NCBI GenBank assembly: GCA_009760855.2
Contig: WPIO01000005.1
Span: 12,752,001 to 12,816,000, forward strand
DNA: 64,000 nucleotides
Reading direction: 5' to 3'
Origin: Cristatella mucedo
Taxonomy: Eukaryota > Bryozoa > Phylactolaemata > Cristatellidae
The translations under genes were made by a program, and so were the position numbers. Below, one piece after another: positions 4,042-62,769 of the stretch (positions are counted from its first letter, which is position 1; the number at the start of each line of letters is the position of its first letter). The notes below the pieces were generated by a model. That model searched no databases, was not told the DNA's origin, and saw nothing but the letters and a program-made list of their open reading frames with translations.

Positions 4042-4340
4042 CTGCATAGCGGCTCGTATTTTTCTGCATTATCCAAGAGGTCCGGTGCGGTCATGATGTG
4101 CCGAATTAGCGCCAGCTTTTTACTAAGGAAAAGATCGACGTTATCATCTGTAATCAAATCTGGCATAGCACCAGTTGGTGTCGGCGCCCGGGTAGGAGCA
4201 ATATTAATATCTGCAGTGCCTGGGGCTCCAGTTGATGCCGGTATAGGTGGTAGTACGGCCATTTTCGAAAGAGATGCTGAAGGTGGCCTGTCAGACTTTG
4301 AAGATTGCAGCAAAGTTTCACCCGCACCAGTCTTGGCCAT
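4042..4340 (-). CDS. Gene C exon 1: start of a third ARM-TIR-SAM paralogue (partial)
   Basis: The ATG at 4340 leads to SDRPPSASLSKMAVLPPIP, a Pro/Ala/Thr stretch, then DDNVDLFLSKKLALIRHIM and DNAEKYEPLC. The exon ends at TGCAG|GTAAGC (4042), phase 2, exactly as in genes A and B. No armadillo exon appears between 1 and 4041, so intron 1 is longer here than in gene A (1.5 kb) or gene B (1.3 kb), and the rest of the gene lies off the left edge. It could instead be a lone remnant; the intact frame, motifs and donor favour a real first exon. Confidence 0.77.
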
Positions 4341-5024
4341 TAACTATTTCCTCAGGCGCATATTCCTTAATAATAAATTAGAGTAATCTGTATCTAAAAT
4401 GTTGTTCCTTCAAGGCTCTCTGAATTAAAGCGCCCGCTGCTCCCACTCGCCTGCTCTGATTGATACATACCGAGCGATAGCACTTTTGGGTAATCCGTAG
4501 AGTCCCACGGTAACGGATTCTGCAGAAGGACTGTTAAACAAAACAGGAGCGAGAATCTCTAAAGAATTTCAACTTCTTCGCCGAAAAGCAGCATGTCGAG
4601 CGAAAATAGCTGGGTCTTTCTCCTGCTTTACCGTACCGATGTCACGGCAGCAACTTCATTGACGAGTGATTTGTTTTCAATATAGTAGGCAGTTCATCTC
4701 AATTTTTCTCTTATGATTTTCCTTAAACTGCTGCCACAGCCCTGTACGCAGCAAAAACTTTTCTATCGCATTGCCGAAAGCCAGAGAGCTCTGTCCGACA
4801 TGCTTGCTTGGTCGGTTGCCATAGAGGCGAGGTCAAGGACCCTGCTTAGCTGGCGCCGACCGAAAGGTGACTGCTTTGGGCAACACGCTCCCTAAGTCGT
4901 TTCATCAGCTTTCATGCTAAAGAAGCTTCTCTTGTCAATGTTAGCCAACCGGAGACTGCATTTTGGAAGCCAGCAATCAATTCCGCTGAGTTCTCTAACT
5001 TATACTATCGCAGGCCACTCCCTA

Positions 5025-62500: not shown

Positions 62501-62769
62501 TGCTGTAATACATACCTGAAATTAGGTTCGTGCTTCAACGGTTGCTCAATAAGATCAGGCTGTCCAGCCAGATACCTAAGCAGGGATATCTTTTTAGTTA
62601 AAAACATGCCAACGTTGTCGTCACGCACTTCTTTCGGGCACAGATTGGTGGGGCTAGGAGGATTCTGTGGCCTTGCTGTAGCTGTCTGGTCGACTGAGAA
62701 TGGATTTATCGGCGGCAGAATGGTCGCCTTCGACAGAGCAGATAGAGGCCTGGTAGTCTGTCTCTCCAT
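41356..62769 (-). CDS. Gene B: armadillo-TIR-SAM protein, complete, 8 coding exons
   Basis: Paralogue of gene A, spliced from 62769-62516, 61239-60401, 54917-54756, 53221-53114, 51866-51765, 48315-48106, 44957-44768 and 41506-41356. The total is 2016 nt, about 671 residues, with no internal stop. N-terminal region 1-85, armadillo repeats about 85-419, TIR 419-559 with putative catalytic E489 in CRSEAEY, linker, and SAM about 598-671. Exon lengths are equal or nearly equal to gene A except exons 1 and 7. Two donors (exon 2, GTCGGT; exon 7, GTTCGC) are weak but lie at the same aligned positions as good donors in gene A. The open frames and the conserved catalytic motif argue for a working gene. 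It lies 8 kb upstream of gene A in the same orientation, as expected from tandem duplication. Confidence 0.85.
41507..44767 (-). other. Gene B intron 7
   Basis: 3.3-kb intron inside the SAM domain. It includes a GC- and CpG-rich block at about 41780-42460 and weak traces of family 1 LINE ends near 42690-42800 and 44340-44410. No host gene supported. Confidence 0.5.
44332..44353. repeat. 22-bp perfect palindrome
   Basis: Eleven-base arm TATAATGACAA directly followed by its exact reverse complement, in intron 7 of gene B. Confidence 0.9.
44768..44957 (-). CDS. Gene B exon 7: linker and first half of SAM domain
   Basis: The 190-nt exon starts after TTATTGAAG (44958). It reads [11 protein letters not shown], a linker of about 30 residues, then [20 protein letters not shown]. 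It ends at TACAG|GTTCGC (44768), phase 2. The donor is weak; phase and alignment with gene A support it. Confidence 0.78.
45590..46140 (-). mobile_element. LINE family 1 fragment (gene B intron 6)
   Basis: Sequence order matches the 3' untranslated and C-terminal coding region (GATAGGTGCGTTTTAGCTAC, CTCCAAAGGACTTGAGGTT, then GACAGACGAGCC). It contains an internal 13-bp tandem repeat. Confidence 0.7.
46013..46064. repeat. 13-bp unit repeated four times inside a LINE
   Basis: CTTAGCAGCGGAG repeated exactly four times. In other copies this position has a single related unit (CCTAGCTGCAGAG). Confidence 0.93.
46146..46210 (-). mobile_element. LINE family 1, 3' end fragment
   Basis: AATAATAATCCACTTGTGTA and GCACCCTAAGAGAACTTAAT. 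Confidence 0.6.
46490..46580 (-). mobile_element. LINE family 1, 3' end fragment
   Basis: AATAGTAAAAATAATAAC and ATAGTGCCCTCAGAAAACTG, then ATCTCTTTTA. Confidence 0.62.
46596..46712. repeat. AT-rich imperfect tandem repeat
   Basis: Units resembling ATATAATATAACCAAATCAT followed by ATAATCGAAT, about three imperfect copies. Confidence 0.75.
47130..47370. repeat. GA-rich imperfect microsatellite
   Basis: Purine-only tract of GAGA, ACAGAGA and GAGAAAC units over 240 bp. The Arg/Glu frame on it is an artefact. Confidence 0.9.
47394..47830 (-). mobile_element. LINE family 1, RT thumb fragment
   Basis: CTAAGCAGGCCCAAGTTTTG, GACTGCAGAGCTAATGTGAC and AGAACCCATTTTGA correspond to 5940-6100 of the best copy, without a 3' end. 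Confidence 0.65.
48106..48315 (-). CDS. Gene B exon 6: C-terminal part of the TIR domain
   Basis: The 210-nt exon starts after AAATTGTAG (48316), completes the Glu codon (AG), and reads [17 protein letters not shown], then [19 protein letters not shown]. It ends at TCAG|GTATGA (48106), phase 1. Confidence 0.87.
48914..49061 (-). mobile_element. LINE family 1, 3' end fragment
   Basis: TAATCTCAGAGAACGTAATC, CTCTTGCTAGG; decayed and directly followed by a plus-strand copy. Confidence 0.5.
49062..49472 (+). mobile_element. LINE family 1, short 3' copy (gene B intron 5)
   Basis: Reads [18 protein letters not shown] and [22 protein letters not shown], then the complete 3' untranslated region and ATT tail. 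Among the least decayed 3' ends here. Confidence 0.82.
50895..51545 (-). mobile_element. LINE family 1 copy near gene B exon 5
   Basis: AATAATAGTAAACTTGATAA tail and 3' block; minus-strand frame reads [20 protein letters not shown] and [16 protein letters not shown]. It lies about 220 bp downstream of exon 5 in intron 5. Confidence 0.8.
51765..51866 (-). CDS. Gene B exon 5: central TIR exon with CRS(E) motif
   Basis: The 102-nt exon runs from AATTGCAG (51867) to TCAG|GTATGC (51765). It encodes [19 protein letters not shown] and [13 protein letters not shown]; the last base starts the glutamate codon. Confidence 0.88.
51867..53113 (-). other. Gene B intron 4
   Basis: 1.25-kb intron with no recognised repeat. 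A hairpin-capable CGGGCTATT / AATAGCCCG pair lies near 51979-52012. Confidence 0.5.
53114..53221 (-). CDS. Gene B exon 4: N-terminal part of the TIR domain
   Basis: The 108-nt exon runs from TTCTGGCAG (53222) to A|GTAGGT (53114), phase 1. It encodes [20 protein letters not shown] and [10 protein letters not shown]. Confidence 0.87.
53222..54295 (-). other. Gene B intron 3, part without repeats
   Basis: No exon found. The minus frame at 53927-54151 ([17 protein letters not shown]) vaguely resembles the C-terminus of non-LTR transposons, but not enough to call. Confidence 0.4.
54296..54642 (-). mobile_element. LINE family 1, 3' fragment next to gene B exon 3
   Basis: AATAATAATAATGCACTTGA, GCGCCCCCCCCCGAG and the full 3' block up to CCAGGCTTTGGGAGC. 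It ends 113 bp from exon 3. Confidence 0.8.
54756..54917 (-). CDS. Gene B exon 3: last armadillo repeat and linker
   Basis: The 162-nt exon runs from ACCAG|GT (54918) to CAAG|GTGAGG (54756), phase 1 at both ends. It reads [19 protein letters not shown] and [11 protein letters not shown], then an Ala/Ser/Thr-rich linker ending SAQKQ. Same length and repeat core as gene A exon 3; the linker half has diverged. Confidence 0.82.
55033..55131. repeat. (TA)n microsatellite
   Basis: About 100 bp of TA with two single ACA interruptions, in intron 2 of gene B. Confidence 0.96.
55132..56555 (-). other. Part of gene B intron 2 with no recognised content
   Basis: No exon or repeat recognised on either strand. 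Confidence 0.4.
56560..56974 (-). mobile_element. LINE family 1, 3' fragment
   Basis: GTTTGATATATCGCCCTTGG, CTTAATCTCTTTCTAGGCAC and the 3' untranslated region up to CATTCCGAAAAG, where a plus-strand copy begins. Confidence 0.75.
56975..57240 (+). mobile_element. LINE family 1, very short plus-strand 3' copy
   Basis: Starts at CCTACTTATTTAGGACAG (last codons) and runs to TTTATCAAGTG and ATT repeats. It sits between two minus-strand pieces of the same family. Confidence 0.75.
57245..58080 (-). mobile_element. LINE family 1, RT fragment
   Basis: ACATGTCGGTAAACCGGC, then the thumb and palm regions in the order of 5860-6700 of the best copy (CATAGAAGTGAAAGAGTAG, CTCTGAAGTCTCCCACTGAG). Decayed. 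Confidence 0.7.
58490..58595 (-). mobile_element. LINE family 1, short 3' untranslated fragment
   Basis: GCACGCACAGTGTCAGCACG and AGGACGAATCACAGAGGCC. Confidence 0.55.
58596..60400 (-). other. Rest of gene B intron 2
   Basis: Includes a moderately GC-rich stretch at 58720-59130. No gene or recognised repeat family; the origin of the GC-rich stretch is unclear. Confidence 0.4.
60401..61239 (-). CDS. Gene B exon 2: armadillo-repeat region
   Basis: The 839-nt exon starts after AATTGCAG (61240) with [19 protein letters not shown] and ends at G|GTCGGT (60401), phase 1. It carries [20 protein letters not shown], then [11 protein letters not shown] and [10 protein letters not shown]. The open frame begins upstream of its first internal Met, so the exon is longer than a Met-to-stop ORF suggests. 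The donor is poor beyond GT; its position is fixed by alignment with gene A and by phase. Confidence 0.82.
61240..62515 (-). other. Gene B intron 1
   Basis: 1.28-kb intron. A plus-strand frame at 61552-62061 has no recognisable family signature and I do not call it a gene. Confidence 0.55.
62516..62769 (-). CDS. Gene B exon 1: start codon and N-terminal motif
   Basis: The ATG at 62769 leads to [20 protein letters not shown], then a Pro-rich stretch, then [19 protein letters not shown]. The exon ends at CAG|GTATGT (62516), phase 2. It shares RP-S, LS, LPPI and DDNV-x2-FLxKK with genes A and C, but the segment corresponding to NAEKY is replaced by PLKHEP. Confidence 0.8.

Follow-up and report, generated by a model that had tools for sequence, protein, structure and literature searches.

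A tandem array of five predicted ARM-TIR-SAM genes in the bryozoan Cristatella mucedo

Among animal TIR proteins, SARM1, with the domain order ARM-SAM-SAM-TIR, is the one whose NADase activity is established, and its ARM and SAM parts gate that activity: its TIR domain cleaves nicotinamide adenine dinucleotide (NAD) under the control of the ARM domain, in oligomers driven by SAM, and the protein kills injured nerve fibres. The evolutionarily conserved TIR-domain-containing (ecTIR-DC) families were reportedly defined by Gerdol et al. 2017. Excerpts of later papers describe ecTIR-DC proteins second-hand (PMC6321704, PMC6836662, PMC5549309) and give family 6 as ARM-Death-TIR-TIR (PMC6836662); other excerpts use ARM-TIR as an accepted label in oyster (PMC4346834), list 11 ARM-TIR genes in Aplysia (Table 5 of PMC9334734) and report a transcript of an amphioxus TIR-SAM gene, model Brafl1_131196 (PMC2575513). 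The order ARM-TIR-SAM was not named in the literature searched, which consisted mostly of titles and the beginnings of abstracts, and Gerdol et al. 2017 may already describe such a family. This study concerns a 64,000-nucleotide stretch of the bryozoan Cristatella mucedo genome (C550:12752001-12816000, hereafter the window; assembly of 572 Mb in 688 contigs), which holds part of a tandem array of five predicted genes whose proteins probably have this order.

Two complete genes, A and B, lie on the minus strand of the window (Table 1). Exon comparison and splice-site reading place gene A at 62769-41356 (671 amino acids) and gene B at 33295-9923 (702 amino acids), each in eight exons; all 14 introns are GT-AG, and the cumulative intron phases (2,1,1,1,1,1,2) are equal in the two genes. 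The homology between them (E 1e-92 for the ARM exon, E 1e-31 for the third TIR exon) indicates that these exons did not arise by chance. An earlier note on this DNA had proposed two complete eight-exon genes and the first exon of a third, head to tail on one strand with identical intron phases; the splice-site models agree on the arrangement, the phases hold for A and B, and the limits given there correspond to the ATG of gene A at 62769 and the exon 1 donor of gene C at 4042 (contig 12756042). The local duplication that the note proposed extends further. With protein B as query, the genome yielded 48 matches at the level of single exons (E<=0.01), confined to two contigs (C550 and C539), and rebuilding the genes after 120 kb of flanking sequence had been read raised the copy count to five complete genes on one strand, spanning 158 kb in the order D, C, B, A, E with gaps of 5.6-17.7 kb between neighbours. 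A real array of predicted open genes, larger than the window shows, is thereby confirmed.

The gene structure, domain order, array and single recent duplication described here are read from genomic sequence, from which the exon joins of all genes are predicted. This leaves room for the explanation that the exons do not form single genes, the ARM, TIR and SAM parts belonging to separate transcripts or the copies being in decay, which we consider very improbable. In its favor, the genes are long (20-26 kb each), a broken retroelement frame of the non-long-terminal-repeat (non-LTR) type lies in an intron of gene B (16847-17479, plus strand), and some exon ends are weak, among them the poor exon 6 donor of gene D. 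However, all five genes are open, without an in-frame stop, and keep the same eight-exon order. When a splice control compared each chosen site with every GT or AG lying up to 15 nucleotides away, whatever its phase, using a simple consensus score with ties settled by order, the chosen site scored best at 62 of 70 exon ends across the five genes and was the sole candidate at 24 of the 70. For C, D and E, sites were sought only at the phases of A and B, so the equality of phases in these genes is partly by construction, and several ends in C and D (chiefly of exons 3, 6 and 7) were picked among frame-compatible sites. Separate transcripts and decay are further opposed by a ratio of nonsynonymous to synonymous divergence (dN/dS) below 1 overall between A and E, and by a gene outside the array. 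This gene, the one read on C539 (within 1730145-1751000), has an ARM part, a TIR domain over three exons and both SAM-like halves (local hidden Markov model E 0.0025 and 8.6e-13), and phase-compatible splice sites, with phases imposed, join its exons 2 to 8; its exon 1 was not recognised. Since it shows the same exon plan, that plan probably predates the array. On C539, which holds a second and more divergent cluster, the ARM exon has four relatives at 30-35% identity. In two of them (1675391-1676188 and 1804972-1805442) the match passes through stop codons; these are possibly pseudogenes or intron run-on.

Divergence within the array is uneven. A and B share 75% identity in the TIR domain, 46% in the ARM and SAM domains and 20-28% in the linkers. 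Identity reaches 86% for A and E (dN 0.07, dS 0.16), whereas the remaining nine of the ten pairs lie at 47-56% with saturated overall dS; the predicted array is therefore one of mostly old paralogues plus one recent duplication. Within the A/E pair, the ARM domain (88% identity, dN/dS 0.33) has not evolved faster than the TIR domain (90%, dN/dS 0.51), which speaks against recent ARM diversification. The two genes can also be aligned outside their exons, at 81% identity in blocks that add up to 25 kb with the exons counted; some of these blocks are repeats that match elsewhere. A 1.2-kb tract around TIR exon 4 (C550:12804975-12806192 versus 12841709-12842925) stands at 98.5%, compared to 68-93% for the majority of the other blocks, and may reflect gene conversion.

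The TIR domain is the clearest part of the encoded proteins (E 3e-18 to 8e-21 in the four genes scanned, A, B, C and E); Pfam TIR_2 matches at 1.1e-19 in B and 8.6e-19 in A. In B it covers residues 454-570 of 702 and is thus not C-terminal. Pfam Arm passes in B (3.2e-10) and C (2.4e-7) and falls below the cut-off in A (0.0077) and E, D not having been scanned whole, while fold comparison gave ARM in 49 of 50 rows. The ARM-to-TIR linker is 26 residues long in B (426-451) and about a dozen longer in D. Behind the TIR domain, each protein carries one SAM-like domain: SAM_3 matches all five array members at E<1 (best E 1.8e-4), and the best match of a five-member SAM profile in the PDB is the SAM of SARM1 (E 0.0048, 26 of 75 positions). 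This assignment is the weakest of the three: the SAM matches whose bit scores were read, those of A, B, C and E, lie under the gathering score. We regard the C-terminal domain as a probable SAM; of the ARM-TIR-SAM order claimed earlier, domain searches upheld TIR in the four proteins scanned and Arm in B and C, and left SAM probable. No obvious hydrophobic segment was seen in the five-protein alignment, inspected by eye only. NCBIfam gave nothing useful, and Rfam and tRNA scans found nothing.

Our leading reading, held at roughly an even chance, is that the array encodes five probably cytosolic ARM-TIR-SAM proteins that act as induced-proximity TIR sensors; in general terms, they would probably be alarm proteins of the cell interior, from a family that was duplicated locally. 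The divergent ARM domain would be the sensing and autoinhibiting part. Upon activation, several copies would be gathered through SAM-SAM contacts, bringing the strongly conserved TIR domains together and so allowing signalling. As to the predicted TIR output, NAD+ cleavage and pure TIR-TIR scaffolding appear about evenly matched.

All five TIR domains keep three residues unchanged: Ser in betaA, Asp in VWID and Glu in SEAEY. The catalytic Glu of the alphaC region (Glu71 of A1) is present in five of five and aligns with the Glu of Cat1 and RPS4, and the register of that alignment places Ser, or Asn in C, at the Trp of the WxxxE motif, which is therefore absent throughout; Cat1 and RPS4 themselves carry Trp there. 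Both proteins were found by searching the PDB with the TIR profile, which gave four matches at E<=1, the best being weak: the bacterial CRISPR-associated TIR Cat1 (0.0057), the TIR of plant RPS4 (0.011 and 0.012) and SNC1 (0.85). According to an excerpt of PMC11374754, AbTir is stopped by alanine at S140, D167, W204 or E208, as well as by R151, V193, R215 and Y238 mutants; W240A leaves TcpC working, and the WxxxE Trp is most conserved among TIRs with cyclic products. If the array TIRs are catalytic, the lack of this Trp would lead one to expect ADP-ribose from hydrolysis rather than a cyclic product.

An alternative explanation, plausible but falling somewhat short of an even chance in our estimation, is that the proteins are catalytically dead scaffold adaptors, in which TIR serves solely to bind further TIRs (Toll receptors, MyD88), assembly being tuned by the ARM and SAM domains. 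The replacement of Trp by Ser or Asn in all five favors it, as do statements in an excerpt of PMC7075850 that the Glu is not necessarily tied to enzyme activity, being frequent also in the TIRs of TLR1/2/6/10, and that SARM1 was, as of 2020, the sole metazoan TIR with known NADase activity. Also in its favor, two TIR genes on the same contig (L002 and L004; C550, near 13.08 and 13.13 Mb), at distances of about 0.23 and 0.28 Mb from the array, have a hydrophobic stretch before TIR and look Toll-receptor-like by eye. Against a purely structural role stand the invariance of the Ser, Asp and Glu positions and the best PADLOC matches of B, which are to the bacterial defence models bSEFIR (1.2e-6) and SAVED_TIR (7.5e-6). 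The array offers five natural variants for asking if ARM gating and SAM clustering work in any domain order. It also bears on the need for the WxxxE Trp in catalysis and clearly adds to the examples of invertebrate non-Toll TIR proteins duplicated in tandem.

Several other features were observed in the window and the genome. COX1, on the 21,008-base contig C688, is free of stops under genetic code table 5 (AGA/AGG = Ser, ATA = Met, TGA = Trp); judged at conserved COX1 positions, this code argues against a vertebrate, tunicate, echinoderm or flatworm origin and marks the DNA as animal, and the protein has a lophotrochozoan appearance. Broken non-LTR-type retroelement frames also lie between B and C (window 5759-8035, minus strand); together with the frame in the gene B intron, they match RVT_1 (1.8e-15, 8.4e-8 and 2.8e-14) and Exo_endo_phos (6e-6). 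Dinucleotide arrays occur at window positions 8884-9054 (AC), 37851-37930 (AG), 47155-47367 (AG) and 55034-55130 (AT), some of them inside long low-complexity frames. Elsewhere, a 649-amino-acid frame (L001:1312-3261, on C475) carries TIR_2 towards its end (1.6e-25); 25 kb off, the same contig has another match.

Table 1. Predicted exons in the window (window positions) and array genes reaching beyond it (contig positions)
Feature	Position	Strand	Basis or remark
Gene A exon 1: start codon, Pro-rich N-terminus	62516..62769	-	splice-site model
Gene A exon 2: ARM repeats	60401..61239	-	exon homology, splice-site model, fold comparison
Gene A exon 3: last ARM repeat and linker	54756..54917	-	splice-site model
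Gene A exon 4: TIR part 1	53114..53221	-	splice-site model, Pfam
Gene A exon 5: TIR part 2	51765..51866	-	splice-site model, Pfam
Gene A exon 6: TIR part 3, begins with conserved Glu of SEAEY	48106..48315	-	splice-site model, Pfam
Gene A exon 7: linker, then beginning of SAM-like domain; AGs upstream of the acceptor also frame-compatible, making it less certain	44768..44957	-	
Gene A exon 8: remainder of SAM-like domain and stop	41356..41506	-	exon comparison, splice-site model
Gene B exon 1	32952..33295	-	splice-site model
Gene B exon 2: ARM repeats	30569..31413	-	exon homology, splice-site model, fold comparison
Gene B exon 3: last ARM repeat and linker	25031..25192	-	splice-site model
Gene B exon 4: TIR part 1	24753..24863	-	splice-site model, Pfam
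Gene B exon 5: TIR part 2	24236..24337	-	splice-site model, Pfam
Gene B exon 6: TIR part 3	20275..20487	-	splice-site model, Pfam
Gene B exon 7: linker, then beginning of SAM-like domain; stronger GT 7 nt upstream, other phase	13788..13968	-	
Gene B exon 8: remainder of SAM-like domain and stop	9923..10073	-	exon comparison, splice-site model
Gene C exon 1	4042..4340	-	exons 2-8 beyond window, contig 12750336-12731476
Gene C	C550:12756340-12731476	same strand as A/B	
Gene D	C550:12713750-12693867	same strand as A/B	
Gene E	C550:12851584-12825446	same strand as A/B	

Compared to SARM1 and TIR-1, the array proteins likewise combine ARM, SAM and TIR in one chain, with the ARM domain N-terminal and a SAM that is weakly SARM1-like. 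SARM1, however, has two tandem SAMs between ARM and a C-terminal TIR, while the array proteins have one SAM-like domain after an internal TIR; and in the SARM1 TIR both Trp and Glu contact the ligand, while the array TIRs have the Glu in five of five and the Trp in none. The earlier note had suggested a permuted relative or a functional analogue of SARM1, possibly an immune or cell-death NADase family; the NADase and cell-death part of this may hold, the Glu being kept but the WxxxE Trp lacking in all five. Descent by permutation was not borne out, as the SAM profile alone, and weakly, found SARM1: no SARM1 chain is among the four PDB matches of the TIR profile at E<=1 or the 43 of the ARM profile (first ~210 positions) at E<=10. 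Nor did SARM1 appear among the 60 of 110 matches listed in the initial PDB search or in the 50 fold-comparison rows, absences that do not exclude it. It is accordingly quite unlikely that the proteins are rearranged SARM1 relatives, in whose ancestor one SAM disappeared and the second came to lie behind TIR, while a NADase gated by nicotinamide mononucleotide and NAD+ and an octameric ring were retained. The same three domain kinds and the SAM match favor such a history, but that match spans 26 of 75 positions, and the single SAM, the internal TIR and the missing Trp also oppose it. The number and position of SAM and the position of TIR, together with the lack of SARM1 in the TIR and ARM profile matches, argue for analogy rather than membership, and a functional analogue of SARM1 is possible. 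In the search for a canonical SARM1 in this genome, tandem-SAM places on C676 and C442 were rejected as what we take to be liprin-alpha- and liprin-beta-like genes; a tandem-SAM pair on C290 (64299-64484, 65950-66081), whose gene is unread, is a candidate. A bolder proposal, which we consider unlikely, is that animals have a second class of TIR enzymes gated by ARM and SAM, which the array represents and which was assembled independently and converged on SARM1. Its oligomeriser would lie behind TIR, its Trp-less site would hydrolyse NAD+ without cyclising, and, in the manner of immune receptor families, it would diversify by duplicating in tandem and by gene conversion between local copies.

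Two other known systems are close by description. The amphioxus gene Brafl1_131196 resembles the array in having TIR and SAM in one protein, and the excerpt describing it does not mention ARM; a similar TIR-SAM frame exists in the Cristatella genome itself (L007:961-2181, C299:1746601-1749945), a single frame with TIR_2 (5.9e-7) followed by SAM_2 (1.4e-4) and no detected ARM. The molluscan ARM-TIR and ecTIR-DC proteins share with the array an Armadillo-type fold and TIR in one protein, an invertebrate setting and a multi-gene family. SAM goes unmentioned in the excerpted descriptions from oyster and Aplysia, whereas the array proteins carry a probable one. We read the array, at about an even chance, as a variant of the molluscan ARM-TIR (ecTIR-DC) kind.
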